Shown here one piece after another: positions 19,728 to 33,754 of a DNA stretch of 49,604 bases (position 1 is the first letter of the stretch; every line of letters begins with the position of its first letter). The notes under the pieces were generated by a model. It was not told the DNA's origin. It saw only the letters and a program-made list of their open reading frames with translations, and ran no database searches. The translations under genes were made by a program, and so were the position numbers. The DNA comes from Arenimonas donghaensis DSM 18148 = HO3-R19. GTDB lineage: Bacteria; Pseudomonadota; Gammaproteobacteria; Xanthomonadales; Xanthomonadaceae. The stretch spans positions 1 to 49,604 of the forward strand of contig NZ_AVCJ01000013.1 in assembly GCF_000743535.1 (NCBI RefSeq). Direction: 5' to 3'.

Positions 19728-20579
19728 CTACGAACGCGAGGGAAAGACACCGTTCGTGCAGATGAAGTACGTCAGCCCGTTGGGCGCGGCATCGCGCAGG
19801 TCGGGCAGGCCAAACGTGGTGCGACCATCGCCGCCGTGGGTGGTGCCCAGCAGCGCGAACAAGGCCGAATTCGACGAGATCGCCAGCAGTTGGCCCTCGG
19901 CTTTTACGCCGGAGGCGACAGAACCGGCGGTAAGCATCACCTCGCCCAGGACGCAGTCGTATTCGCGACCGCTGGCGGCCCAGTGGGTGTTCACACCAAA
20001 GCGCAGGTCAGGCGTGATCGGTCCGGCGGGGCCCTGCGGACCCTGTGGACCCTGTGGACCCGCGGGACCGGTGGCTCCGGCGGGGCCGGTGGCACCGTCG
20101 GCGCCCGCCGGGCCGGACGGACCCATCGGACCGATCGGTCCCATCGGGCCGGGCGTACCCGGGATGCCGGCCGGGCCAGGAACGCCCATCGGTCCCATCG
20201 GGCCCATGGCACCCATCGGACCGGGAACACCCATCGGACCCATCGGGCCAGGTGCGCCCATCGGACCCGTCGCACCGGTCGCGCCGGTTGCACCCACCGG
20301 CCCCTGCGGGCCGACCGCGCCAGCCGGGCCCTGGGGCCCCTGTGAACCCCAGGAAACGAGCGAGGTTCCCCAGCGGCAATTGACGAAGCTGCCCTTCTTG
20401 ATGCTCAGCACGAGCAGACTGTCCGAATCCTGTGCGCAGGCATAGAACGTATCCGGATCCGGCGGATTGGCCGGCGGCGGCGGCGGGAACCACTGAGCGG
20501 AGGCGGTGGCAGGCAACATTAGGGCCGCAGCGGCGAACAGTCCCGCCAGGCGGCGCGACGAAGATGCATTAACAATCAT
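19728..20579 (-). CDS. Secreted collagen-like protein with phage tail-collar C-terminal domain
   Basis: 283 residues. A signal peptide (cleavage probably after ATASAQ, about residue 29) is followed by a proline-rich stretch and a small N-terminal region containing two Cys. Then come 37 uninterrupted Gly-X-Y triplets (residues 78-188) and a C-terminal domain that matches the phage tail-collar fold ([48 protein letters not shown]). Bacterial Gly-X-Y proteins form trimeric triple helices, and tail-collar domains trimerise, so the C-terminus probably registers the helix. The ATG at 20579 follows an AGGGGAA site. Only one GntP-type gene lies upstream on the same strand, 98 bases away; whether they are co-transcribed is unclear. 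Likely extracellular or surface fibre. Confidence 0.88.
20016..20348 (-). repeat. Gly-X-Y triplet tract (37 repeats)
   Basis: This coding tract gives 37 consecutive Gly-X-Y triplets, rich in GPM, GPA, GAT and GPQ, with no interruption. Sub-blocks such as [15 protein letters not shown] recur, suggesting growth by slippage or unequal recombination. Its length is therefore expected to vary between strains. Confidence 0.9.
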
Positions 20580-20677: not shown

Positions 20678-22075
20678 CTACACCCAGCCCGTGGCGTAGA
20701 ACACACTGATGATGAAAAACACCGCCAGCGTCTTGATGATCGTGATGGCGAAAATGTCCTTGTAGGCCTGGCGGTGCGTGAGACCGGTGACCGCGAGCAG
20801 GGTTATAACCGCGCCATTGTGCGGCAGGGTGTCCATGCCGCCGCTGGCCATCGAGGCAACGCGATGCAGCACCTCCATCGGGATGTTGGCGGCGTTGGCG
20901 TTGGCGATGAAGGTTTCCGACATCGCCGCCAGCGCGATCGACATGCCCCCCGAGGCGGAGCCGGTGATGCCCGCCAGTGCGGTCACCGTGATCGCTTCGT
21001 TGACCAGCGGGTTGGGAATCGAACCCAGGGCCCCGGCAACGACGAGGAAGCCGGGCAGGGCGGCGATGACCGCGCCGAAGCCGTATTCGGACGCCGTGTT
21101 CATCGAGGCCAGCAAGGCGCCGCCGATCGCCGGTTGGGTGCTTTCCGCGAAGTGCGTGCTCACGGCCTTCCAGGCCAGCACCACGACCGCCACGATGCCG
21201 GTCAGCAGCGCCGCCTCGACCGCCCAGATCGCGGCGATCCGCGAGACTTCCTGCACCACCGGCTCGGCATTGCCGATCACCGACGGGTCGAAGGCGTGGC
21301 TCTCGCCGTAGTAGCGCGGGATCAGCACGGTGTAGAGCTTGTTGGTGACGCCCACCAGCACCAGCGGCAGCAGCGCGATCCACGGGTTGGCCAGCTTGTG
21401 GCCGGCGAAGGGCGCCGGCTCGTTCCGGAGTTCGGTGCCGTAGCCTTCGCCGGCGCGACGCGCGACGCGACGGCGCCACTCGAGGTAACTGATGCCCAGG
21501 GCGAGGATGAACAGGCCGCCGAGCGTGCCCAGCACCGGCGCGGCCCAGGTGTCCGTCCCGAAGAAGCCGGTGGGGATGATGTTCTGGATCTGCGGCGTTC
21601 CGGGCAGCGCATCCATCGTGAAGGTGAAGGCGCCCAGCGCGATCGTGCCGGGGATCAGGCGCTTTGGGATGTCGGCCTGGCGGAAGAGCTCGGCCGCGAA
21701 CGGATAAACCGCGAACACCACCACGAACAGCGAAACGCCGCCATAGGTGAGCACGGCGCAGACCGCGACGATGGAGAGCATCGCCCGGTCGGGGCCGAAG
21801 AGCCGGATCGTCGCCGCGACGATGGACTTGGAGAAGCCCGAGATCTCGATCAGCTTGCCGAAGATGGCGCCCAGCAGGAACACCGGGAAATAGAGCTTGA
21901 GGAAGCCCACCATCTTGTCCATGAACAGGCCGGTGAACATCGGCGCGACCAGCGATGGGTCGGTCAGCAGCACCGCACCCAGGGCCGCGACCGGCGCGAA
22001 CAGGATGACGCTGTAGCCGCGGTAGGCCACGAACATCAGGAAACTCAGCGCCGCCAGCACGATCAGGAAAGACAT
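20678..22075 (-). CDS. GntP-family permease, probably for 3-hydroxybutyrate
   Basis: 465 residues and about twelve hydrophobic segments. The overall pattern (FLLGAIFGKLIEISGFSKSI, AVCAVLTYGGVSLFVVVFAVYPFA, SASGGMSIALAAMSETFI, LPHNGAVITLLAVTGLTHRQAYKDIF) is that of the GntP/citrate-type H+ symporter superfamily. Homologues are often found beside 3-hydroxybutyrate dehydrogenase genes, and here the divergent neighbour is a TonB receptor in a PHB/3HB locus. Import of 3-hydroxybutyrate across the inner membrane is therefore the favoured role, but the substrate is inferred from context. It shares the intergenic palindrome at 22137-22150 with the receptor gene; no good -10 box is visible in its own direction. 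Confidence 0.82.
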   Translation of the reverse strand: MSFLIVLAALSFLMFVAYRGYSVILFAPVAALGAVLLTDPSLVAPMFTGLFMDKMVGFLKLYFPVFLLGAIFGKLIEISGFSKSIVAATIRLFGPDRAMLSIVAVCAVLTYGGVSLFVVVFAVYPFAAELFRQADIPKRLIPGTIALGAFTFTMDALPGTPQIQNIIPTGFFGTDTWAAPVLGTLGGLFILALGISYLEWRRRVARRAGEGYGTELRNEPAPFAGHKLANPWIALLPLVLVGVTNKLYTVLIPRYYGESHAFDPSVIGNAEPVVQEVSRIAAIWAVEAALLTGIVAVVVLAWKAVSTHFAESTQPAIGGALLASMNTASEYGFGAVIAALPGFLVVAGALGSIPNPLVNEAITVTALAGITGSASGGMSIALAAMSETFIANANAANIPMEVLHRVASMASGGMDTLPHNGAVITLLAVTGLTHRQAYKDIFAITIIKTLAVFFIISVFYATGWV

Positions 22076-22132
22076 GCCCTAGAACCCCCGGAAAACCAGA
22101 CTCCGAGTGTCCGCAGGCAAACCCGTCGCCAC

Positions 22133-22180
22133 CACTTGTACCAAGGTACAGGTGTCGCCCGGCCGGCCCGGTCGTAGTCT
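22133..22180 (+). promoter_or_regulatory. Predicted operator and promoter of the TonB-receptor operon
   Basis: The palindrome TGTACCAAGGTACA (22137-22150) is extended by CAC/GTG arms (22133-22135 and 22152-22154). A -10-like TAGTCT lies at 22175-22180, 31.5 bases from the palindrome centre, which places the palindrome near -43 as expected for an activator touching RNA polymerase. There is no recognisable -35. The same core, GTACC-NN-GGTAC, with the same spacing occurs before bdhA at 30809-30820. Binding by the LuxR-type regulator at 31781 is inference. Confidence 0.7.
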
Positions 22181-22231
22181 GCGGGGCATCCGGCCGTCCG
22201 GCCGTTCGCCAAGTCGTTCGAAGGGGAAACC

Positions 22232-24436
22232 ATGAAGCGCAAGCAACTGAGCCTGGCCATCGGCCTCACATTGTCCCTGGCGGCGCTGCAAGCGCAGGCC
22301 CAGGAGACCACGCCGGCGCCGGCCAGCGACGAGGCCGTGACCCTCGACGCCATCCAGGTCACCGCGCGCAAGCGCGAGGAGACCCTGCAGGAAGTGCCCG
22401 TGGCCGTGACCGCCTTCACCCCCGAGACGATCGACAAGCTCAATATCCGCGACATCGGTGACCTTGATGCCCAGGTCCCGAACCTGACGATCTACGCCGC
22501 GCGTGGCTCCAGCAGCACGGTCACCGCGTACATCCGCGGCGTCGGCCAGTCCGATCCGCTCTGGGGCGTCGACCCGGGCGTGGGCATCTACCTCGACGAC
22601 GTCTACATCGCCCGCCCGCAGGGCGCCCTGCTCGATGTGTTCGACGTCGACCGCGTGGAAGTATTGCGTGGCCCGCAGGGCACGCTCTATGGCAAGAACA
22701 CCATCGGCGGTGCCATCAAGTACATCTCCCGTGGCCTCCCGACTGAAACCGAAGGCACCGTCGCGGTCACGGTCGGCAGCTTCAACCAGATGGACGTGAA
22801 GGCCGCCATCGGTGGTTCCTTCGGCGGCAATGACGCCCTGCGCGGCCGCCTGTCGGTCGCCAGCCTGAGCCGCGACGGCTACGGCAAGAACATCGTCACG
22901 GGCCAGGACGTCAGCGACAAGGAAGTGTTGGCCCTGCGTGGCCAGCTCGGCGCCTACGTCACCGAGGACTTCAACCTGCAGTTCGCCTTCGACTGGCTCG
23001 ACGACCAGTCGGGCGTGCGTGGCGCGCAGATGTTGGCGCCCAACCGCTTCGTGCCGACCGCGCCGCCGATGGCCGACCGCTACGACGTGCGCAATGGCAT
23101 GCCAAATATCAACGACACCTCCATGCAGGGCATTTCGGCCACCGCCAACTGGCGGATCAACGACGACTGGGGCTTCAAGTTCGTCACCGCCAAGCGTGAA
23201 TCGGACACCGAAACCAATATCGATTTCGACCTGACCCAGGCGCCCATCGCCGACGTCAAGGCCTTCTACAGCGACGAGCAGGTGAGCCACGAACTGCAGC
23301 TCAACTACGATGCCGGTGGCCGTGCCCGCGGCGTCATGGGCCTGTACCTGTTCGACGGCGAGGCCGGTGGCCAGGTCCTGAACAACTTCTTCGGACTCCT
23401 CTTCGGCGACACCCAGGGCACGGTCTACACCGAGTCCGTGGCGATCTACGGCGACTGGACCTTCGACATCAGCGACCGCCTGCACCTGGACCTGGGTGCG
23501 CGCTGGACCGACGAGGACAAGCGCGCCGACGTGTTCAACCGCGGCTACAGCGACGGCACCTACACCAGGCCGACGACGGTGGTCGCGGACTTCGACAAGA
23601 CCATCAACTTCAGCAACCTCTCGCCCAAGATCTCGCTGGGCTACCAGGCCACCGACGACATCCTCGTCTACGGCCTGGCGACCCGCGGCTTCAAGTCCGG
23701 CGGTTACAACATCCGGGCCCAGGCCACCGCGGTGCCCCGTTCGGCTGAGCCCTTCGATGACGAGGTCGTGGACAGCTACGAGGTCGGCGCCAAGATGGCC
23801 TTCCTCGACCAGCGCCTGTTCCTGAACCTCTCGGCCTTCCACAACAAGTACGAAGACATCCAGCTGTCGGTGTTCACCAGCTACGACAGCAACAACGACG
23901 GCACCAACGATGCCTTCTTCGGCGACTTCACCAACGCCGGCTCCGGCACGGTCAATGGCGTCGAGGTCGAGTACCAGTGGCTGCCGACCCGCAACTGGCT
24001 GATCAGCGGCAACATGGCGTTCCTGGACGCGAAGTACGACGAGTTCATCTACACCGGCCTGAACATCGCCGACGAGCAGGAGTTCACCAACGCGCCGGAG
24101 TTCTCGGGTGCCATAAACATCGAGTACCGCAGCGACCTGGCCAATGGCGGCGATATCTCCGCGCGAGTCGGCTACAGCTACCAGGATGACGTGGTCGCGA
24201 CCACCGAAATCATCCGTTCCGGTGCCGTGCCGATCACCCAGGACGGGTACGGCCTGGTCAATGCCGGCGTGATCTGGAACACCGGCGGTCCGTGGTCCTT
24301 CTCGCTCCAGGGCACGAACCTGACGGACAAGGAATACCGGACCACCGGCTACAACATCAACGCGGCGCTGGGCGTGCTTACCGGCTTCTACGGCCCGCCG
24401 CGCCAGTTCAGCCTGTCGGCGCGTTACGAGTTCTGA
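22232..24436 (+). CDS. TonB-dependent outer-membrane receptor
   Basis: 734 residues with a signal peptide (MKRKQLSLAIGLTLSLAALQAQA), a plug domain (about 40-155: ITARKREETLQ-type start, VPVAVTAFTPETIDKL, VEVLRGPQGTLYGKNTIGGAI) and a 22-stranded-type barrel ending in the typical terminal Phe (SARYEF). The plug pattern belongs to the large group of receptors for carbohydrates and other organic ligands in Xanthomonadales and sphingomonads rather than classical siderophore receptors. Next to a PHB depolymerase, it may take up soluble 3HB oligomers; this is inference. Its stop overlaps the next start (TGATG) and a terminator hairpin follows 29 bases later. Confidence 0.93.
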   Translation: MKRKQLSLAIGLTLSLAALQAQAQETTPAPASDEAVTLDAIQVTARKREETLQEVPVAVTAFTPETIDKLNIRDIGDLDAQVPNLTIYAARGSSSTVTAYIRGVGQSDPLWGVDPGVGIYLDDVYIARPQGALLDVFDVDRVEVLRGPQGTLYGKNTIGGAIKYISRGLPTETEGTVAVTVGSFNQMDVKAAIGGSFGGNDALRGRLSVASLSRDGYGKNIVTGQDVSDKEVLALRGQLGAYVTEDFNLQFAFDWLDDQSGVRGAQMLAPNRFVPTAPPMADRYDVRNGMPNINDTSMQGISATANWRINDDWGFKFVTAKRESDTETNIDFDLTQAPIADVKAFYSDEQVSHELQLNYDAGGRARGVMGLYLFDGEAGGQVLNNFFGLLFGDTQGTVYTESVAIYGDWTFDISDRLHLDLGARWTDEDKRADVFNRGYSDGTYTRPTTVVADFDKTINFSNLSPKISLGYQATDDILVYGLATRGFKSGGYNIRAQATAVPRSAEPFDDEVVDSYEVGAKMAFLDQRLFLNLSAFHNKYEDIQLSVFTSYDSNNDGTNDAFFGDFTNAGSGTVNGVEVEYQWLPTRNWLISGNMAFLDAKYDEFIYTGLNIADEQEFTNAPEFSGAINIEYRSDLANGGDISARVGYSYQDDVVATTEIIRSGAVPITQDGYGLVNAGVIWNTGGPWSFSLQGTNLTDKEYRTTGYNINAALGVLTGFYGPPRQFSLSARYEF

Positions 24437-25494
24437 TGACAAGCTTTCCCCGGGAACTTTCCCAACGGGCCGCGCAAGCGGCCCGTGTTTTTATTCCGAC
24501 GGTTGCGCTGCTGGCGCTGGCTGCCTGCAGCGCCGAACCGCCGCCGCCCTTGCCGGCGATCGCGGTGGACCCTGCGCGGGTGGCCGTGGCGGGTGTTTCG
24601 TCCGGTGCGATCATGGCGACCCAGGCCCACTTCGCCTGGTCTGACCGCCTGCGCGGCGCCGCCATGGTGGCCGGCACGCCCTATGGCTGCGCCGGCGGCT
24701 CGCTGGAAACCGCCCTGGGCCCGTGCATGCAGGCGCGGCCCTACCTGCCTGATCCCGACCGCCTCGCCGGGGCCGTGCGGGCGCGGGCCGAAGCCGGCGT
24801 GCTGGCCCCGCTCGCGGGCCTGCGTGGCGACACGGTTTATGTCCTGCACGGACGCGACGATGCCACGGTCGCGCCGGCGCTGGCCGGGTCGGTGGCCGGC
24901 GTCTATGAAGCACTGTCCGGGGAGGTTGGCGGCATCCGGATCGTGGCCGACACCACGCGCGGGTTCCCGCACCTGCTGCCCACCCTGGACCGCGGCGTCG
25001 ACTGCGCGGTGGGCGGCGAGCCGTGGCTGGGTAACTGCGGCTTCGACGCGGCCGGGGAGATCATGGCCCACCTGTTCGGCGAGCCGCCAACCCCGGCCCG
25101 TCCCGCGGCCGACGGCGAACTGCGGCGTTTCGACCAGGCGCCGTTCGCACCCGCGGGCGTGGATCCGATGCTGGCCGGCGTCGGCTACCTCTACCTGCCC
25201 AAGGCCTGCGCAGCCGGCGAAACCTGCGGGGTGATGGTCGCTTTCCATGGCTGCCAGCAAAACGCCGACAAGATCGGCGAGGTCTTCGTGCGCGACGCCG
25301 GCTTCAACCGCTGGGCCGACGTGCACCGCGTGGCCGTGCTGTATCCTCAGGTTCGATCAAGCTACCTGCCGCTCAATCCAAAGGCATGCTGGGACTGGTG
25401 GGGATATACGGGCGAAAACTACGACACCCGCGACGGCGCCCAGCTGCGCTGGCTTGGCGCCGCGTTGACGGCGCTGGGCGCGCCCATGCCGTGA
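24436..25494 (+). CDS. Lipoprotein poly(3-hydroxybutyrate) depolymerase, type II catalytic domain
   Basis: 352 residues. The signal peptide ends in a lipobox (LLALAAC, lipidated Cys31). The PHB-depolymerase esterase pattern is clear: lipase box GVSSG with Ser55, Asp141/142 in LHGRDD, His179 in GFPHLLP, and a downstream oxyanion-hole motif AFHGCQQ (His271). The order Ser-Asp-His-oxyanion is that of type II (circularly permuted) depolymerase domains. The protein stops right after the catalytic domain, without the linker or substrate-binding domain of secreted enzymes. The only plausible in-frame start is ATG 24436, overlapping the receptor stop, although the n-region codons form a terminator hairpin. 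Probably outer-membrane bound and active on PHB or its oligomers. Confidence 0.85.
   Translation: MTSFPRELSQRAAQAARVFIPTVALLALAACSAEPPPPLPAIAVDPARVAVAGVSSGAIMATQAHFAWSDRLRGAAMVAGTPYGCAGGSLETALGPCMQARPYLPDPDRLAGAVRARAEAGVLAPLAGLRGDTVYVLHGRDDATVAPALAGSVAGVYEALSGEVGGIRIVADTTRGFPHLLPTLDRGVDCAVGGEPWLGNCGFDAAGEIMAHLFGEPPTPARPAADGELRRFDQAPFAPAGVDPMLAGVGYLYLPKACAAGETCGVMVAFHGCQQNADKIGEVFVRDAGFNRWADVHRVAVLYPQVRSSYLPLNPKACWDWWGYTGENYDTRDGAQLRWLGAALTALGAPMP
24465..24492 (+). terminator. Terminator-like hairpin inside the depolymerase 5' coding region
   Basis: A perfect 9-bp stem ACGGGCCGC / GCGGCCCGT with a GCAA tetraloop, then GTTTTTA. This is a textbook intrinsic terminator 29 bases after the receptor stop, yet it lies within the first 20 codons of the downstream gene. 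It probably makes receptor transcripts more abundant than depolymerase and kinase transcripts, with ribosomes entering at the TGATG overlap able to melt it. Confidence 0.8.
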
Positions 25495-25507
25495 ACCGGA
25501 CGCGGTC

Positions 25508-28500
25508 GTGCTGACCGACGTCCTGGTCATCGGCGCCGGCCTGCTGTGGCTGGGGCTGTTGTTCGGCACGGCGCTGCTGGCCGAGCGCCGTCCCGGCCTG
25601 CTGGCGAAACAGTGGCCGGTGGTCTACAGCCTGTCGCTGGCGGTGTACTGCACGTCCTGGACCTTCTACGGCACGGTCACCCAGGCCCAGCGTTCGGGCT
25701 GGGCGATCCCGCCGACCTTCCTGGGCACCATCCTGCTTTACGTGCTGGGCTTTGGCTTCCTGCTCAAGCTGCTGCGACTGGCCCGCGAGCACAATTCCAC
25801 GTCGCTGGCCGACCTGATCGCCACGCGCCTGGGCCGCAACTCCTGGCTGGCGGCCGTGGTCACCTTCGTGGCGGTGATGGGCATCGTTCCCTACATCGCT
25901 CTGCAGCTCAAGGCGGTGGCGATGAGCTACGGCCTGCTCACCCGGGCCTCCGAACTGGCGCCGCCGCCGTGGCAGGACAGCGCGCTTTACGTGGCGCTGG
26001 CGATGGGCCTGTTCGCGATGCTGTTCGGCACCCGGCGGGTGTCGGCCGCCGAACACAACCGCGGCCTGGTGCTGGCGATGGCGGTGGAATCACTGCTCAA
26101 GCTGGGCGCGATGCTCGCCCTGGGCGTCTTCGTGGTGTTTGGCCTGGACCTGCCGGACGTCGACCTGCCGCCGCCGCCCGCCGACGGCGCCAGCGGCTTC
26201 CCGGCGCTGGTGTTGCTGGGCGCGCTGGCCATGTTCACGCTGCCGCACCAGTTCCACGTCGGCATCGTCGAGTGTCGCCAGGAACGCGAACTGCGGACCG
26301 CCCGCTGGCTGTTCCCGCTGTACATGCTGGTCATCGCGCTGCCGATCCTGCCCCTGGCGCGCGCCGGCGATGCGCTGCTGGCTCCCATGGGCGTGCCCTC
26401 GGACCTGTACGTGCTGGCACTGCCGCTGGCCGAAGGCCACGAGGCACTCGCGTTGCTGGCCTTCCTGGGGGGGCTCAGCGCCGCCACCGGCATGGTCATC
26501 CTGGCGACGCTGGCATTGAGCGTGATGATCGGCAACCACTGGCTGGCGCCGCTGCTGGTGCGCGGACCCTGGTCGGGCGGGGCGGGCGAAGGGGCCGACC
26601 TGCGCGGGGCCGTGCTCAACCAGCGTCGCGTGGGCATCCTGGCGGTCGTGCTGCTGGCCTGGGTTTACAGTCGCCTGATCGCCGGCTCGGATGCGTTGGC
26701 CGACATCGGCGCGCTGTCGTTTTCGGCGCTGGCGACCCTGGCGCCGGCGGTGGCGTTCGCCGTCTGGCGCCCGCAGACGCCGGCCCGGGCGGTGCTCGCC
26801 GGCCTGGTGGTGGCGGTGGCGATCTGGAGCTGGGTGCTGCTGGTGCCGGCCTTCGCCGAAGCCGGCGGCGAGTCCGCGCCGTGGCTGCGGCAGGGACCCT
26901 TTGGCTGGGCCTGGCTGGCCCCCGAGGGCATGTTCGGACTGGGCGAGTGGAGCCGGATCGGCCGCGCGACCCTGCTCAGCCTCGCGGCCGGCGCGCTGGT
27001 TCCCTGGATGCTGGCTTCGCGCCTGGACGTGGCCACGCCGGACCGCGGCGGTGCGCTGTCGCGCGAGGCGCTGCGCGAAGTGGCGGTGCGGTTCCTGCCG
27101 GTGGACCGGGTCGACGCGGTGCTGGCCGGGGCCGCGGCCGGGCAGGCGGTGCCGTCCCAGTTGCAGCAACGCATCGAGCGCGAACTGGCGGCGGTGCTCG
27201 GCGCGGCTTCGGCCCGGCTGCTGCTCGATGCCGCGCGCCGTGCCCAGGGAACCGATCTCGATACCGTCGCCACCATCGTGGGCGAAGCCTCGCAGGCGCT
27301 GCGTTTCAACCAGCGCGTGCTCGAGGCCGCGCTGGAAAACATGAGCCAGGGCATCTCGGTGGTGGACGCCGAACTGCGCCTGGTGGCGTGGAACCGGCGT
27401 TACGCCGAGCTCTTCGACTACCCGCCGGAACTGCTCCAGGTCGGCGTGCCGGTCGCGGAACTGGTCGCGCACAACGTCGACCGCGGCCTGGCCGGCGATG
27501 GCCCGCCGGAACGGGAGGTCGCCAAGCGCCTGCGCCACATGCGCGCGGGCACGCCCTACGTCGCCGAAAGGCACTTCGGCGGCATCGTCGTCGAGATCCG
27601 CGGCAACCCCATGCCCGGCGGTGGGTTCGTGGCCACGTTCACCGACGTCACCGACTTCCGCCGCAGCGAAGCCGAGCTCAAGTCGGTCGCCGAGACGCTC
27701 GAACAACGCGTGGCCGAACGCACCGCGCAGCTTGCCGGCGCCAAGGCCGAGGCCGAGCGCGCCAATCGCGGCAAGTCGCGTTTCCTGGCGGCGGTCAGCC
27801 ACGACCTGGCCCAGCCGCTGAACGCGGCGCACCTGTTCGTGCACGCCCTGGCGCCGCGCCTGGCGGCCACCGAGCACGAGGAGGCCCTGGCCAACATCGA
27901 TGGCGCCCTGGTGTCCGCCGAGGGCCTGCTGTCGGGCCTCCTGGACATCTCGCGGCTTGATGCCGGCGGCATGGAGCCCAAACCCGAGGTTTTCCGCGTC
28001 GACGAACTGCTGCAGCACCTGGCCGCCGAGTTCGGCGTGCTGGCGGCGCAGAAGGGGCTGGCGCTGGACCGCGTGCCTTCGAGCGCCTGGGTCTTCACCG
28101 ACCCCCAGCTGTTGCGCCGGGTGCTGCAGAACTTCCTGGGCAACGCGGTGCGCTACACGGCGCGCGGCCGCATCGTGCTGGGCTGCCGGCGGCGCGGCGA
28201 ATCCCTGGTCATCGAAGTCTGGGATACCGGCCCGGGCATCGCCGAAGCGGACCAGGCGGTCATCTTCGAGGAATTCCGGCGCCTGGACAAAGGCGGGCAG
28301 GGGCTGGGCATCGGGCTGGCGATCGCCGAACGCGTGGCACGCCTGCTCGGACTGCCGCTGAAACTGCGCTCCTGGCCCGGCCATGGCACCGTGTTCTCGA
28401 TCCAGGTGCCGCGGGCGGCGCCGGCACCGGCCGACACGACGGCAGCGCCGGAGCCGACGCCGGAGCCGCCGCGCAGCCGCGTGCTGGTGGTGGACAACGA

Positions 28501-28837
28501 CCCGGACGTGCTGCGCGGCATGCAGGCCTTGCTGGGCGGCTGGGGCTGCGACGTGATGGCGGCGCGCGATGGCGACGACGCGGTCGCGCTCGCGGCGGAG
28601 CACGGCCCACCCGACTTGCTGTTGCTCGACTTCCATCTCGATGGCGGCCAGACCGGCCTGATGCTGCGCGATCGGCTGGCCAGCGTCATGCCCGCGCGTC
28701 CCTGCGTGATCATCACCGCCGACCACGGCCCGGACGTGCGCGACGCCATTGCCGCGGCCGGCTGCGTGCTGCTGCACAAGCCGCTCAAGCCGCTGGCGTT
28801 GAAGTCGGTGATGTCCCGCCTCTTGCAGAACGTGTAG
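25508..28837 (+). CDS. Hybrid sensor histidine kinase with SSS transporter-like N-terminus (CrbS/MxtR-like)
   Basis: 1109 residues, GTG start 13 bases after the depolymerase stop. About 560 N-terminal residues form a multi-pass sodium:solute-symporter-like domain (YSLSLAVYCTSWTFYGTVTQAQRSG is typical). A PAS domain follows (about 615-720, LENMSQGISVVDAELRLVAWN), a coiled coil, then HisKA with His765 in FLAAVSHDLAQPLNAAHL, an HATPase domain with DTGPGI and GLGIGLAIAERV, and a receiver domain (about 992-1105) with Asp1041. This is the architecture of CrbS/MxtR, which pairs with a LuxR-type regulator to control acetate metabolism in Vibrio and Pseudomonas. Here the partner is probably the NarL-type regulator at 31781 and the signal 3-hydroxybutyrate or a related acid (inference). 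The stop codon lies within a REP element. Confidence 0.92.
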   Translation: MLTDVLVIGAGLLWLGLLFGTALLAERRPGLLAKQWPVVYSLSLAVYCTSWTFYGTVTQAQRSGWAIPPTFLGTILLYVLGFGFLLKLLRLAREHNSTSLADLIATRLGRNSWLAAVVTFVAVMGIVPYIALQLKAVAMSYGLLTRASELAPPPWQDSALYVALAMGLFAMLFGTRRVSAAEHNRGLVLAMAVESLLKLGAMLALGVFVVFGLDLPDVDLPPPPADGASGFPALVLLGALAMFTLPHQFHVGIVECRQERELRTARWLFPLYMLVIALPILPLARAGDALLAPMGVPSDLYVLALPLAEGHEALALLAFLGGLSAATGMVILATLALSVMIGNHWLAPLLVRGPWSGGAGEGADLRGAVLNQRRVGILAVVLLAWVYSRLIAGSDALADIGALSFSALATLAPAVAFAVWRPQTPARAVLAGLVVAVAIWSWVLLVPAFAEAGGESAPWLRQGPFGWAWLAPEGMFGLGEWSRIGRATLLSLAAGALVPWMLASRLDVATPDRGGALSREALREVAVRFLPVDRVDAVLAGAAAGQAVPSQLQQRIERELAAVLGAASARLLLDAARRAQGTDLDTVATIVGEASQALRFNQRVLEAALENMSQGISVVDAELRLVAWNRRYAELFDYPPELLQVGVPVAELVAHNVDRGLAGDGPPEREVAKRLRHMRAGTPYVAERHFGGIVVEIRGNPMPGGGFVATFTDVTDFRRSEAELKSVAETLEQRVAERTAQLAGAKAEAERANRGKSRFLAAVSHDLAQPLNAAHLFVHALAPRLAATEHEEALANIDGALVSAEGLLSGLLDISRLDAGGMEPKPEVFRVDELLQHLAAEFGVLAAQKGLALDRVPSSAWVFTDPQLLRRVLQNFLGNAVRYTARGRIVLGCRRRGESLVIEVWDTGPGIAEADQAVIFEEFRRLDKGGQGLGIGLAIAERVARLLGLPLKLRSWPGHGTVFSIQVPRAAPAPADTTAAPEPTPEPPRSRVLVVDNDPDVLRGMQALLGGWGCDVMAARDGDDAVALAAEHGPPDLLLLDFHLDGGQTGLMLRDRLASVMPARPCVIITADHGPDVRDAIAAAGCVLLHKPLKPLALKSVMSRLLQNV

Positions 28838-28911
28838 GAGCGCCTTCAGGCGCGAATCCCATCTTTGCCAAGGGCAAGGCCGAAGGATTCGCGCCTGAAG
28901 GCGCTCCTACA
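28833..28911. repeat. REPIN-like pair of inverted REP palindromes
   Basis: Two 27-base arms (28833-28859 and 28885-28911) are perfect reverse complements separated by 25 bases. Each arm is itself a hairpin with core GCGCCTTCAGGCGC preceded by GTAGGA. It overlaps the kinase stop codon (28835-28837) and ends 10 bases before the convergent hydrolase stop. The spacer holds a small hairpin (TTGCC / GGCAA). No RAYT transposase is in the window. Confidence 0.85.
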
Positions 28912-28921
28912 GGGCGCGGGG

Positions 28922-30772
28922 CTAGGGCATCGCGCCCAGGTTTTCCCTGGCGAGCGGCGCCAGCTTCCCGTCCTCGAACGAACGCGGCGTGGTCGCGATG
29001 TCGGCATCCGCCGGCAGCGCCACCCCGGCCGCGAGGTGCTGCCAGGCGGCGTCGAGGGCACGGTAGCCGTAGGGCATCATCGGCACGTAGCGTTTGCCCA
29101 GCACCGGCAGACCGAGGAAGGCGTCGAAGTGCTGCGCGTTCTGTACGCGCCAGTAGCGCAGGTCGGCGCCCCCGGCTTTGGCCCAGCGCGCGTAGGCGCC
29201 GCCGCTGAAGGGTTCGGGCACCAAGCCGTCGTCGGCGCCATGCACGACGATGATCGGCAAGCCCAGGCGCGGCACGCCCGCGCGCGTTGCCTCGACGCCG
29301 GCACGCACGGCGCTGCCGGGTTCGGTCCACAGCGCACGCAGGCACTGGTTGCCGCCCAGGGCCGGATCCGCAGTGGTGTCCATGCCGCCCACCAGGGCGA
29401 CGCCGGCGCCGGGCGGGATGCCGCTGGCATCGGACCACCACGCGGCGCGCTCGGCCGGCGTCGGCGCGCGCAGCTGGCCATCGGCGCCGAGCGCGGCGAA
29501 GGAAAAACCACAAGGCATGTCGGCCGGGCCGGTGCGTGCATAGGCCGAAGCGTAGGTGGCATTCACCGCGCGCCACAGGTCGAAGTTGCTGCTGATCACG
29601 CCGGCGGCGATGCCGGCGTCGGTCCAGCCGCCGTCGAGCAGGTGCTGGCGTGCCTGTTCGGCCTGGGCGGCGGCATCGCCGGCATCGAGCAGGCCGCGGG
29701 CCTGGAGCATCGTGCAGCGCGCCAGGCCGGCCGCCGAAGGCTGGCCCTGCGGACGGGCCAGCACGTTGTCGTCGAAGGCGCCGGCATTGAGCGCGCAGGA
29801 CATCCACAGCGCCGCATCGGTCGAATAGTCGTAAAGCGCGCGCCCGCCGTTGCCGGGCAGCACGTTGGGCGAGATCGCCACCACCGCATCGATGCCGGTG
29901 CCGGGCAGTTCGGCCGCGCGCAGCACCGCGCCGCCGCCGTTGGAGACGCCGACCGCGATCACGCGGGTATTGGCGTGGGTCCAGGGGCCGTCGTCGGGAT
30001 GCGCGAGCGCCAGCACCTGGAAGGCAAAACGCGTCGCCTGCCCGACGTGACGGCCCCAGTCGGCCTCGGGATTGTCACCCGAGTGCGCGTGCTTGACCGC
30101 GATCGGCGCGACGCCATCGACGGTGTCCCGCGGCGCGACCTCGAATTCCACCGCCTCGCCCGGACCGGCCAGCCGGCCGTCCAGCGCGAAGCCGCGGCCG
30201 TCGCCGGTGTCGACGTAGCCGGTGCCCGCGCCCTTGTCGGTGTAGGCCACCGCGCAGCCCCGGGGCAGACCCCAGGCGCCGGCGAGGGCGATGGCGCCGT
30301 AGATGCCGCGCGAACCGGACGAGGCCGTGACGACGATGCAGCGCGCATCGGTGTCGAAGTCGTCGGGCAGTTGCACCATCACCCGGTGCGGCTGGCGACG
30401 GCCCGGCAGGGTGGCCAGGGCGTGGTACTCGCGGCCGGTGACCGGCGCCAGCGAGCCATAAAATTCACCGTAGCCACCGCCCGGCGCCAGGTCGGCGATG
30501 CCGCGCCAGTTGGTCCAGACGGCGCGCCGGCGCAGCTCCTGCGCGGTCGGCGCGGCCGGGTCGGCAAAGCCGGGTGGCGTGGCGCTTCGCAGGCCTTGGG
30601 CGCCCAGTCCCGCGGTCAGCAGGTCGTCGTCGCCGCGATGGGTGTGCAGCGCGATGCCGGCCTCGAGGTCCAGTGCCCCCGGGCCGACGCCGCCACCGAC
30701 ACCGGCACAGGCGGACAGGGCCAGCGCGAGCGCGGCGATCGGCAGGGGGCGCGACAATCGGTGCATGTTCAT
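28922..30772 (-). CDS. Lipoprotein D-(-)-3-hydroxybutyrate oligomer hydrolase
   Basis: 616 residues, close to the family length. The signal peptide ends in a lipobox (ALALSAC, Cys22), so the enzyme is probably membrane-anchored on the periplasmic or outer face. The 3HB-oligomer hydrolase family pattern is visible: N-terminal LRRRAVWTNWRGIADLAPGGGYG, LPDDFDTDARCIVVTASSGSRGIYGAI, CAVAYTDKGAGTGYVD, the nucleophile elbow GVSNG with Ser277, and a late GLPIIVVHGADDGLVP plus VQNAQHFDAFLGLP carrying the likely Asp and His. It releases 3-hydroxybutyrate monomers from oligomers made by the depolymerase. The start is ATG 30772 (an alternative is ATG 30766); the -10 box lies only six bases upstream, so the mRNA may be leaderless. 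Divergent from bdhA across a shared palindrome. Confidence 0.88.
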   Translation of the reverse strand: MNMHRLSRPLPIAALALALSACAGVGGGVGPGALDLEAGIALHTHRGDDDLLTAGLGAQGLRSATPPGFADPAAPTAQELRRRAVWTNWRGIADLAPGGGYGEFYGSLAPVTGREYHALATLPGRRQPHRVMVQLPDDFDTDARCIVVTASSGSRGIYGAIALAGAWGLPRGCAVAYTDKGAGTGYVDTGDGRGFALDGRLAGPGEAVEFEVAPRDTVDGVAPIAVKHAHSGDNPEADWGRHVGQATRFAFQVLALAHPDDGPWTHANTRVIAVGVSNGGGAVLRAAELPGTGIDAVVAISPNVLPGNGGRALYDYSTDAALWMSCALNAGAFDDNVLARPQGQPSAAGLARCTMLQARGLLDAGDAAAQAEQARQHLLDGGWTDAGIAAGVISSNFDLWRAVNATYASAYARTGPADMPCGFSFAALGADGQLRAPTPAERAAWWSDASGIPPGAGVALVGGMDTTADPALGGNQCLRALWTEPGSAVRAGVEATRAGVPRLGLPIIVVHGADDGLVPEPFSGGAYARWAKAGGADLRYWRVQNAQHFDAFLGLPVLGKRYVPMMPYGYRALDAAWQHLAAGVALPADADIATTPRSFEDGKLAPLARENLGAMP

Positions 30773-30778
30773 GGCCAG

Positions 30779-30850
30779 ACCTTAGCAATGGGCGTGTCGG
30801 CCGGCATCGTACCTTGGTACGACGCGGGGTCGCGGGGTCGCTGCTAGTCT
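30779..30850. promoter_or_regulatory. Bidirectional operator/promoter between oligomer hydrolase and bdhA
   Basis: The 16-bp palindrome TCGTACCTTGGTACGA (30807-30822) sits in the divergent gap. On the plus strand an extended -10, TGCTAGTCT (30842-30850), starts its hexamer 30.5 bases from the palindrome centre. On the minus strand an extended -10, TGCTAAGGT (30787 down to 30779), starts its hexamer at the same 30.5 bases on the other side. One symmetric site could thus activate both genes. The core GTACC-NN-GGTAC repeats the motif before the TonB receptor (22138-22149). Confidence 0.72.
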
Positions 30851-30882
30851 GGCGACAGGCTTTCAACTGCCAGGAATTGCAC

Positions 30883-31692
30883 ATGGGCGAACGTTTCCTC
30901 GAGGGCCGCACGGCCCTGGTCACCGGCTCCACCTCCGGCATCGGGCTGGCCATCGCCCAGGCGCTGGGAAGCGCCGGTGCCAGCGTGGCGGTCAACGGCC
31001 TGGGCAGCCACGAACAGGTCGAAGCCGCCGTCGCCTCGGTCTGCAGCGCCGGCGCGCCGAAGGCGACGTTCCTGGCCGCCGACCTGGCCAACGCCGACGC
31101 CGTGGAAGCGATGATGCGTGCGCTCGACGACTGGGGCCCGGCCGACATCGTCGTCAACTGCGCCGGCGTGCAGCACACCGCGCCGATCGGCGAAATGCCC
31201 GCCGCCACCTGGGACAAGCTGATCGCCATCAACCTCAGCGCGGCCTTCCACACCATGCGCCTGGCATTGCCGGGCATGGTCGGGCGTGGCTTCGGGCGCG
31301 TGGTCAACATCGCGTCGGTGCACGGGCTGGTGGCGTCGGTGAACAAGTCGCCCTACGTGGCCAGCAAGTTCGGCCTGGTCGGGCTGAGCAAGGTCGCGGC
31401 GCTCGAAACGGCGGGTGCGGGCAGCCGCGACAGCGGCGGCGTCACCATCAACTGCGTTTGCCCCGGCTGGGTGGAAACGCCCCTGATCGAGCCGCAGATC
31501 GCGGCGCGCGCACAAGCCAACGGCGGTGACCGCGACGCCGGCATCCGGGCTCTGCTGGCCGAAAAACAGCCCAGCGGCCGCATGTCGCTGCCGGCCGACA
31601 TCGCCGCGACCGTGCTGTTCCTGTGCCGCCAGGAAGCCCACAACATCACCGGCACCGCGATCCCGGTCGACGGCGGCTGGTCGTCCCAGTAG
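30883..31692 (+). CDS. bdhA: 3-hydroxybutyrate dehydrogenase (short-chain dehydrogenase)
   Basis: 269-residue SDR enzyme. It has the NAD-binding TGSTSGIG (14-21), VNCAG (91-95), and the catalytic residues Asn117, Ser145, Tyr158 and Lys162. The SVHGLVASVNKSPYVASKFGLVGLSKVAALE stretch and the CVCPGWVETPLIEPQI substrate-loop region match the D-3-hydroxybutyrate dehydrogenase subfamily, which oxidises 3HB to acetoacetate with NAD. ATG 30883 has a CAGGAA site 7 bases upstream. Cytoplasmic end point of the PHB route encoded around it. Confidence 0.92.
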   Translation: MGERFLEGRTALVTGSTSGIGLAIAQALGSAGASVAVNGLGSHEQVEAAVASVCSAGAPKATFLAADLANADAVEAMMRALDDWGPADIVVNCAGVQHTAPIGEMPAATWDKLIAINLSAAFHTMRLALPGMVGRGFGRVVNIASVHGLVASVNKSPYVASKFGLVGLSKVAALETAGAGSRDSGGVTINCVCPGWVETPLIEPQIAARAQANGGDRDAGIRALLAEKQPSGRMSLPADIAATVLFLCRQEAHNITGTAIPVDGGWSSQ

Positions 31693-31704
31693 CCACGCTT
31701 CCTT

Positions 31705-31752
31705 TGGGAGGGACTTCAGCCCCGAAGAGCTTCGGGACTGAAGTCCCTCCCA
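31705..31752. repeat. REP-like long inverted repeat
   Basis: Two 23-base arms (31705-31727 and 31730-31752) pair with a single G:T-type mismatch around two bases. Each arm contains a GGGACTTCAG(T/C)CCC hairpin after TGGGA. It follows bdhA by 12 bases and ends 15 bases before the -10 of the response regulator, so it may insulate the two. Confidence 0.82.
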
Positions 31753-31767
31753 CAGCGAACGCCGGGA

Positions 31768-31773
31768 TAGACT
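31768..31773 (+). promoter_or_regulatory. Predicted -10 box of the LuxR-type regulator gene
   Basis: TAGACT ends seven bases before the GTG start at 31781, and no ribosome-binding site precedes the GTG. This spacing suggests a leaderless transcript. No GTACC-NN-GGTAC palindrome is present here, so the regulator gene does not look autoregulated through that site. Confidence 0.45.
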
Positions 31774-31780
31774 TTCGCCC

Positions 31781-32440
31781 GTGACCCGCCTGCTGATCGC
31801 CGACGACCACCCGCTCTACCGCCTGGCGCTGACCCAGGCGGTGCGCGGCGTGCTGCCGGAAGCGGACATCACCGAGGCCGAAGACCTGCCCGGCGTGCAG
31901 GCGGCGCTGGCCGCGCATCCGGACATCGACCTGGTCCTGCTGGACCTGCACATGCCCGGCAGCCACGGACTGGTCGGCCTGGCGTCGCTGCGTGCCGAAT
32001 ACCCGGGCGTCGCGGTGGCGATGATTTCGGCGCACGAAGACCCGGCCACCATCCGGCGCGCGCTGGCCTACGGCGCCGCCGGCTACCTGACCAAACGCGC
32101 CGACCTGGGCGAACTGCAGGCTGGCCTGCGCGCGGTGCTGGCCTGCGAACAATGGCTGCCGCCGTCCCTGCGCGAGGCCGTGGCCAGCGCGCCCTCCGAA
32201 CCCGGCGACCGCGAGACGGCCGCGCGCCTGGCGACGCTGAGCCCGCAGCAGTTCAAGGTCCTCACTCGCGTCGCCGAGGGCCGGCTGAACAAGCAGATCG
32301 CCGACGAGCTGGGCATCCAGGAGCGCACGGTCAAGGCCCACATGAGCGCCATCTTCGAAAAGCTCGGCGTGCGCAACCGCACCCAGGCCGGCGTGTTGCT
32401 GGGCAGTCTGTCGCTGTCCGACCCGGCCCGCGAGGCCTGA
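31781..32440 (+). CDS. NarL/LuxR-family response regulator (CrbR/ErdR-like)
   Basis: 219 residues. A receiver domain has the acidic residues D8-D9, phospho-acceptor Asp55 (DLVLLDLHMPGSHG) and the lysine in GYLTKRADL. A LuxR-type helix-turn-helix follows (about 150-210: LSPQQFKVLTRVAEGRLNKQIADELGIQERTVKAHMSAIFEKLGV in three overlapping blocks). No kinase gene is adjacent; the nearest orphan-looking kinase is the SSS-hybrid kinase at 25508, and such hybrid kinases pair with NarL-type regulators in the CrbS/R system. It is the best candidate to bind the twin palindromes of this locus. The stop codon abuts the stop of the next, convergent gene with no gap. Confidence 0.9.
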   Translation: MTRLLIADDHPLYRLALTQAVRGVLPEADITEAEDLPGVQAALAAHPDIDLVLLDLHMPGSHGLVGLASLRAEYPGVAVAMISAHEDPATIRRALAYGAAGYLTKRADLGELQAGLRAVLACEQWLPPSLREAVASAPSEPGDRETAARLATLSPQQFKVLTRVAEGRLNKQIADELGIQERTVKAHMSAIFEKLGVRNRTQAGVLLGSLSLSDPAREA

Positions 32441-33754
32441 TCAGTACCAGTAGGGGATGCGCCAGGTCGGCGGCAATTCGCCCTTTTTCGGCGGCGTTTG
32501 CGGCGTGAGTACGATGTTCAGCTCGTGGCGGCCGCGGCGCTGCCCGGAAAGCGGGACCATGTAGAGCAAGCCCCGCAGGTCGCGACGGGCGTCGGAATAA
32601 AGCTCGGCGCGCAGGTCAAGCGGCTCGCCGTCGAGGCTTACCGCAAGACCGGCGGACAAGCAGTCCCGGCGTGCTTCGCGCTGCGCCTCGCGCGCCGCCG
32701 CGTCGGCGTCCGCAGCCTGCCGCTCCGTGCAGTTTTCCAGCAGGTGGCCATGCACCGAAGGCACGAACGGCACCACCAGCGGCAGGTAGCTGCCGCGGGC
32801 CACCATGTCGGGCACGTAGGGACCCTGCGGCGACTCGCCGACTTCGTGCAGGCTGGCGTAGCGGTCATGGCGTACCGATTGTTCGCCCGACGATTCCAGG
32901 GTGGGAAAGGCGTCGTAATGTCCCCAGCCCAGGTCGTCGTCCAGGACGTTCATGCTGGCGATGCTCGCCACGGTGGCGAAGGTGACGATGCCGCCGACGA
33001 TCCAGTTTCCGCGGTCTTCGCCAACGTTGGTGGTGTATAGGGTCACCAGCGGCGCGGATTCGCGGCCCAGTCCGAAGCGCGAGAAGGCGGCGAGCACGCC
33101 CCGGATCGCCCGGTAGGGCCAGCCACCCGGGGACAGCCGGTGACCCAGGTAGCGGTCGGCCATCAGCACCAGCAGGTAGGGAAACAGCGACAGCGAGAAC
33201 ACGTACATGACCCAGGTACTGGCCTGGTCAGCCTGGCCGGCGAGCGCGGCCAGTCCCAGCGACACCAGCAGCAGGGCCGATCCCACGAAGGTGATGGTGA
33301 CCATCATCCGCGCCAGGCCAATGCCCATGCCGAAGACCACCGAGGCCCGGTTGTCGGCCGCTTCGATCTGCTCCGGCATCGGCACCCAGCGGCTCAGCAG
33401 CAGGTCGCGTCCCACGGGGCCACCACGGAGGCGGTCTGGCTTGAGCCCACCGGGATAAACCGAGTCCATCCCCACCAGCGCGACCCAGTAGGCGCGCATG
33501 AAAAGGTGCAGTACGAACGCCACGCAAAGCAGGATGACCCCGCATTGGAAATAAACCAGGCCCAGCCCCAGCACCTGCTGCCAAAGCGGACCCAGCCGGG
33601 GCAGCAGGTAGCCGCCCCATTCGGGCAGGGCACCGGCGAACTGCACCAGGGCGAAGACCGTCGCGCCTGAGAGCAGCAGTTCAATCTCCCAGGTCGGCGT
33701 GGTGCGGCCGGACAGGTGATTGACGGGGGCCGGGTGCGCGGATTTTTCGGTCAT
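32441..33754 (-). CDS. Uncharacterised multi-pass membrane protein
   Basis: 437 residues when started at ATG 33754 (MTEKSAHPAPVNHL); the frame is open further upstream but that part overlaps the start of the divergent gene and looks like non-coding shadow. About five hydrophobic segments lie in the first 300 residues (e.g. LGLGLVYFQCGVILLCVAFVL and SALLLVSLGLAALAG), then a soluble, charged C-terminal region with two Cys (NCTERQAA..RRDCLSAG) and a Pro-rich end. I do not recognise the family. The gene is convergent with the response regulator with zero bases between stops. Confidence 0.75.
   Translation of the reverse strand: MTEKSAHPAPVNHLSGRTTPTWEIELLLSGATVFALVQFAGALPEWGGYLLPRLGPLWQQVLGLGLVYFQCGVILLCVAFVLHLFMRAYWVALVGMDSVYPGGLKPDRLRGGPVGRDLLLSRWVPMPEQIEAADNRASVVFGMGIGLARMMVTITFVGSALLLVSLGLAALAGQADQASTWVMYVFSLSLFPYLLVLMADRYLGHRLSPGGWPYRAIRGVLAAFSRFGLGRESAPLVTLYTTNVGEDRGNWIVGGIVTFATVASIASMNVLDDDLGWGHYDAFPTLESSGEQSVRHDRYASLHEVGESPQGPYVPDMVARGSYLPLVVPFVPSVHGHLLENCTERQAADADAAAREAQREARRDCLSAGLAVSLDGEPLDLRAELYSDARRDLRGLLYMVPLSGQRRGRHELNIVLTPQTPPKKGELPPTWRIPYWY

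Follow-up and report, generated by a model that had tools for sequence, protein, structure and literature searches.

The closest described relatives of the system reported here are two-component pairs with SLC5-STAC sensors. CrbS/CrbR (MxtR/ErdR) controls acetate utilisation in Pseudomonas and Vibrio (PMC5715377, PMC8402216). It joins an SLC5-STAC hybrid kinase to a LuxR/NarL-type regulator that targets acs and actP, and activation by CrbR requires the ACTU motif, an imperfect palindrome just upstream of an RpoD promoter at −52 to −36 of acs (PMC5715377). CbrA, the sensor of the histidine system CbrA/CbrB, also belongs to the SLC5-STAC proteins; in its structure (PDB 10ED) K196 occupies the Na2 site (PMC13022988). 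In RpuS/RpuR, the pyruvate system of Sinorhizobium, an SLC5-STAC kinase controls a small-acid uptake gene (PMC9100948). ErdR and RpuR targets are described in PMC8402216, PMC9927353 and PMC9100948, and term searches for hydroxybutyrate gave no match in these papers or in PMC5715377. Here we analyse a 49,604-nucleotide stretch of Arenimonas donghaensis DSM 18148 = HO3-R19 (contig NZ_AVCJ01000013.1, positions 1 to 49,604, referred to as the window), in which two matching palindromes, GTACC-(AA/TT)-GGTAC, lie among genes for the use of polyhydroxybutyrate (PHB) and 3-hydroxybutyrate (3HB). Sequence comparison makes it probable that these palindromes are operators of the NarL-type regulator encoded at 31781, with the SLC5-STAC kinase acting upstream of it, and that the regulator activates a PHB/3HB regulon.

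Twin palindromes and their −10 boxes

The two palindromes and the −10-like boxes around them are:

22137..22150, no strand: palindrome 1, TGTACCAAGGTACA, predicted operator in the permease/TonB-receptor intergenic region
22175..22180, + strand: TAGTCT, −10-like box of the TonB operon, 31.5 bases from the centre of palindrome 1
30779..30784, − strand: TAAGGT, −10-like box of the hydrolase gene with TGC before it, seen as TGCTAAGGT
30807..30822, no strand: palindrome 2, TCGTACCTTGGTACGA, predicted operator in the 3HB-oligomer hydrolase/bdhA intergenic region
30845..30850, + strand: TAGTCT, −10-like box of bdhA, 30.5 bases from the centre of palindrome 2

A preliminary description of this DNA had placed both palindromes and both TAGTCT spacings, and all are exactly as it gave them. 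Palindrome 1 extends outward, imperfectly, to CACTTGTACCAAGGTACAGGTG. There is no further TAGTCT on either strand of the window, where about 2.6 copies are expected by chance. The same description had found no other copy of the palindrome by eye, and an exact search of the whole 2.98 Mb genome (51 contigs, the window being contig C13) for GTACCNNGGTAC returns these two alone. About three exact copies are expected from the base composition of the genome (an estimate), and the pattern read backwards, which served as a control, has three. Copies with up to two mismatches are not enriched in the window (8 against 11.7 expected, with two exact). As the copy number is chance-like, the weight rests on the placement of the two sites in two intergenic regions of one locus and on the conservation of both. 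A consensus scan of 22000-32600 for sigma-70 promoters with a −35 found none (0.4 expected), which is weak evidence but would fit activator-dependent promoters.

Conservation of the predicted operators

The exact palindrome pair is present in five of six genomes of the genus, that of the window included (G000, G128, G147, G076, G042), with the two copies 8.56-8.79 kb apart in the equivalent two intergenic regions. In the sixth, G103, palindrome 1 is exact and palindrome 2 has one mismatch, and the named locus of Arenimonas oryziterrae has one mismatch per site.

A match to the hydrolase was found in 107 of 148 family genomes. We compared 61 hydrolase-upstream regions, comprising the window and 60 family loci (L032-L091) that are mostly best hydrolase matches and no random draw. 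The 12-mer occurs with 0, 1, 2 and 3 mismatches in 9, 33, 17 and 2 of these regions, that is, with at most two in 59, as compared to 0.15, 0.7, 4.25 and 32.85 per 61 random windows of the same loci. In the direction of the hydrolase the consensus of the element is TNGTACSAANGTACGATG. The TA of the hydrolase −10, which the preliminary description had put 30.5 bases from the centre of palindrome 2, lies there in the window and at exactly this distance in 52 of the 61 regions. This fixed spacing supports the predicted placement of an activator near −42, as had been proposed. On the side away from the hydrolase TA is found at 30.5 or 31.5 bases in only 29 regions, so the bdhA-side promoter is less uniform; a TA at 41.5-42.5, about one helical turn beyond, accounts for 18 counts. 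In many of the 61 loci the first gene opposite the hydrolase is the regulator instead of bdhA.

On the permease/TonB-receptor side, the palindrome 1 site is present in all 26 other regions of this kind that were examined, nine of them from Alteromonadales. Four genomes of other genera carry GGCATTGTCC[GA]AAGGTACAG, each with an equally spaced TAGTCT. All 13 named Lysobacterales regions have the element at 0 to 3 mismatches, in Dyella as CACTGTACCAAGGTACAAGTG, and eight of them have TA at 31.5 bases. TAGTCT itself recurs in three of these 13. The shared box noted in the preliminary description is thus real in the window and not invariant, the bdhA side reading TAGGGT in same-genus relatives. 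The nine Alteromonadales regions (Pseudidiomarina, Aliidiomarina, Idiomarina, Lacimicrobium and Alteromonas; locus L275 left out) all have the palindrome, for example ATAGTACTAACGTACAG, and a homologous regulator alongside, while their permease and receptor are 32-41% identical to those of the window. In Pseudidiomarina piscicola a TonB-side TAGGGT lies 31.5 bases from the palindrome centre by hand count. Two of the refuting outcomes named in the preliminary description, lack of conservation before orthologous genes and a random scatter across coding regions, were not borne out.

Co-occurrence of site and regulator

Among named loci with both regulator and hydrolase, 23 of 24 have the site (18 by the 12-mer and five by weight matrix). 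Outside the family, both hydrolase loci with the regulator have it (L201, score 29.6; L204, score 7.7). Where no regulator was found, the site is present at one of nine hydrolase genes, a count that leaves out G007 (contig ends) and G059 (46-residue match). It was not found in G028, G060 and G073, family genomes without a linked-type regulator, or in the stretches L202, L203, L205, L206 and L207 from outside the family, in which the regulator was sought in the stretch only. In G067 and G022 the regulator lies elsewhere in the genome and the hydrolase site is still kept, so the association is not mere linkage.

The genes and the kinase sensor

The genes of the locus are:

20678..22075, − strand: GntP-type permease, probable 3HB importer, assigned through homologues alone
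22232..24436, + strand: TonB-dependent receptor (PF00593, PF07715)
24436..25494, + strand: PHB depolymerase, probably exported (PF10503, E 3.2e-6, a modest score)
25508..28837, + strand: SLC5-STAC hybrid histidine kinase, 1109 residues (PAS_7, HisKA, HATPase, receiver)
28922..30772, − strand: 3HB-oligomer hydrolase (PF10605, E 3.5e-127)
30883..31692, + strand: bdhA, 3HB dehydrogenase (NF009093, 278 bits with 258 needed)
31781..32440, + strand: NarL-type response regulator, predicted binder (PF00072 and PF00196, over cut-off)

A PHB/3HB utilisation gene set of depolymerase, oligomer hydrolase, dehydrogenase and permease is present. The permease of the window matches no Pfam or NCBIfam family and is recognised by its homologues in Alteromonadales (32-35% identity), two of which match PF02447. 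The first 266 residues of the depolymerase match NF050059 (E 7.3e-50, 170 bits, below the cut-off of 280). The dehydrogenase scores 283.6 bits against TIGR01963, where 307 are needed; its start codon is our choice. The set would provide for extracellular PHB cleavage, oligomer uptake and hydrolysis, and monomer oxidation after import, the import roles being putative. The depolymerase in the TonB operon, the permease beyond palindrome 1 and an unlinked site at scoAB, described below, go beyond the preliminary description.

Pfam reports PAS, HisKA, HATPase and receiver domains for the kinase, and the same domains in 11 of 11 homologues, but no SSF domain. A profile (A3) built from seven kinase N-termini matches one solved chain, PDB 10ED, over 5-550 with E 1.6e-94; this match bears out the earlier label of an SSS-hybrid kinase. 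The Na2-site lysine of CbrA, Lys196, aligns with Lys198 of the window kinase and is invariant in the 11 and 7 kinases aligned. By the profile over the joint N-terminus, the kinase is an SLC5-STAC two-component sensor. Its ligand presumably differs from that of CbrA/CbrB. CbrB is of the NtrC type and not of the NarL type.

Three features lie beside or between these genes. Next to the locus, 19728-20579 encodes a protein that combines collagen triple-helix repeats with a phage tail collar domain (PF01391, PF07484). The kinase and hydrolase genes converge, and the stretch that separates them, 28836-28912, is filled by a long inverted repeat, GGAGCGCCTTCAGGCGCGAATCC ... GGATTCGCGCCTGAAGGCGCTCC. 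This looks like a dispersed element, since the acs upstream region of this genome (L289) holds a very similar repeat. A hairpin-like repeat, GGGAGGGACTTCAGCCCCGAAG ... CTTCGGGACTGAAGTCCCTCCCAC, in the bdhA/regulator gap at 31704-31755 may bear on the cotranscription of bdhA and the regulator.

A third site upstream of scoAB

With a relaxed pattern we found a further site, ATCGTACTTTAGGAC, outside the window in contig C49 of the same genome. It is weaker than the window sites and its centre lies 67 bases before the ATG of scoAB, the 3-oxoacid CoA-transferase subunits A and B (TIGR02429 and TIGR02428, both over cut-off). This enzyme carries out the next step in 3HB breakdown. The other four relaxed matches were rejected, two in contig C15 as lying inside a 23S rRNA gene and two in contigs C1 and C8 as lying in open frames read as coding. 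Upstream of scoA in relatives, 21 of 30 regions score at least 0, as compared to 1.3 to 1.8 expected. Of 45 genomes with the regulator, 37 pass the weight matrix upstream of scoA, as do 8 of the 37 that lack it (Fisher p 3.7e-8, kinship ignored). Two genomes with cut or shortened regulators, G066 and G109, are set aside in this comparison, and both fail at scoA; with G066 counted as regulator-present and G109 as absent, the fractions are 37/46 and 8/38. The strict 12-mer was discarded as a family-wide marker, since 80 of 149 family genomes have it, many of them in an unrelated position, and even more, about 120, have the reversed pattern that served as control. The usable marker is the relaxed form at a fixed place.

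Comparison with CrbR and related regulators

As proposed in the preliminary description, we compared the element with CrbR/ErdR sites and found the same predicted place and centre with different half-sites. Twenty ACTU sites align in register with the window element on a common ACC-WW-NGT centre. Position +5 is A in 58 of 61 window-type elements and C in 19 of 20 ACTU sites. The half-site is thus GTAC here, as opposed to GAC in ACTU (GACY-N2-RGTC type), and the window element is not an ACTU operator. RpuS/RpuR depends not on a palindrome but on an imperfect direct repeat that spans −80 to −43 (PMC9100948).

The window regulator has the receiver and LuxR-type helix-turn-helix of a NarL/FixJ response regulator. 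Its closest named record is that of Arenimonas metalli CF5-1 (92% identical), and its next best match within its own genome is 36% identical. Against the ErdR model NF041830 it scores 213.8 bits, with a cut-off of 390. A tree of 45 regulators, rooted at the midpoint and with several long branches, places it in a clade of 16, mostly Lysobacterales, and the nine Alteromonadales regulators form another clade. Pseudomonas, Acinetobacter, Shewanella, the alphaproteobacteria and the second regulator of some Lysobacteraceae make up a group with support 86/92, which we call the ErdR group because the Pseudomonas proteins sit in it; the window regulator lies outside. By clade, model score and operator, then, the system is no member of CrbS/CrbR, although it is predicted to work like it, with activation by the regulator of PHB/3HB genes in place of acs and actP.

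Relatives within the genus hold both kinds of regulator. In Arenimonas G147, G042 and G076, which encode two ErdR-type regulators, acs is preceded by an ACTU-like palindrome (scores 20.1, 18.5 and 17.5), whereas G000, G128 and G103 have one such regulator and no ACTU-like acs site (5.6, 0.5 and 3.3). Paralogue and operator are thus lost jointly, which is what one would predict if each palindrome belonged to its own regulator. Three Arenimonas acs promoters (L290, L291, L292) carry TAGAC-centred palindromes that are probable sites of the second, CrbR-type regulator. Neither motif stands at acs in the genome of the window (best scores −2.2 and 5.6). In G103 a window-type site, GTTCCTTGGTAC, precedes acs and lies exactly 31.5 bases before a TAATCT; no window-type site is so spaced before acs in G000 or G128. 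It looks like the acs gene of G103 is passing to the 3HB-type regulator, in one case only.

Alternative explanations

The conservation of the sites, the fixed −10 spacing, their near-absence where the regulator is missing and the different palindrome of the paralogue support the earlier proposal of the 31781 regulator as the predicted binder. Several observations weigh against it. No suitably spaced −10 is seen on the permease side of palindrome 1, which makes it doubtful that the regulator controls the permease. Locus L231 has regulator and hydrolase and no site, and G114 and G088 (loci L072 and L073) have an unlinked regulator and a degenerate site only. G120 has a hydrolase site (score 20.9) and no linked-type regulator was found in it; the assembly is a draft of 76% completeness, and G022 and G067, from the same genus, do have the regulator. 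The scoA element is kept in the eight regulator-less genomes counted above, and in four of them (G023, G031, G054, G146) no ErdR-type regulator is found at E<=1e-45. The 61 hydrolase-upstream regions were also the training set of the weight matrix, and the counts ignore shared ancestry. The G120 site and the four scoA cases would suit the rival view that the palindromes belong to an unlinked transcription factor, perhaps a repressor sensing 3HB or acetoacetate, with the two-component pair there by chance. We think this unlikely. The hydrolase site is nearly always missing along with the regulator and is kept in G067 and G022, where the regulator is unlinked, and a position near −42 suits an activator, as with CrbR, whose motif the half-sites resemble while differing from it along with the paralogue.

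It is less likely still that the system is CrbS/CrbR itself and that the locus belongs to the known acetate regulon. As a second close ErdR-type regulator is missing from the window genome, the one at 31781 might serve acetate genes too, and G103, which also has a single regulator, has the window-type site before acs. Evidence against this explanation comes from the position of the regulator outside the ErdR clade and below the model cut-off, from the bare acs promoter of the window genome and from relatives that hold both paralogues with different operators. That the palindromes are due to chance is highly improbable. The number of exact copies in the genome and the lack of enrichment of loose copies in the window would allow it, but the deep conservation at one place and the fixed −10 spacing contradict it.

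Proposed regulon and its significance

In the regulon that we propose, the kinase at 25508 would sense 3HB or a related small acid and phosphorylate the regulator at 31781. A dimer of the regulator would bind GTACC-(AA/TT)-GGTAC, the centre of which would lie some 42 bases upstream of the transcription start, and recruit RNA polymerase to promoters that have a −10 and no recognisable −35. The TonB receptor-depolymerase-kinase operon, the 3HB-oligomer hydrolase, bdhA and perhaps the regulator gene behind it would be switched on in this way, and scoAB through its weaker unlinked site. The gene products would then take external PHB or its oligomers to acetoacetyl-CoA, with the TonB receptor as the putative importer of 3HB oligomers.

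On balance, we lean towards a broader view in which a separate, ancient SLC5-STAC transceptor/regulator subfamily senses 3HB and, in Lysobacterales and Alteromonadales, controls the TonB-dependent scavenging of PHB oligomers. The regulator and CrbR would be paralogues whose regulons are kept apart in one cell by a small change in the half-site (GTAC as opposed to GAC). In genomes that have lost CrbR, the promoters it targets may lose their site or, as with acs of G103, carry the other one. We found no description of such a PHB/3HB regulon in searches of an open-licence full-text library. If true, the use of PHB and its oligomers by these bacteria would be under a regulon whose operator, regulator and sensor are assigned, and every transport and enzyme step would have its candidates, among them a TonB receptor for a product of bioplastic breakdown. 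The transporter-kinase sensors would gain a further substrate class, and the question of how NarL-type regulators discriminate between two operators could be addressed in a natural pair of paralogues.

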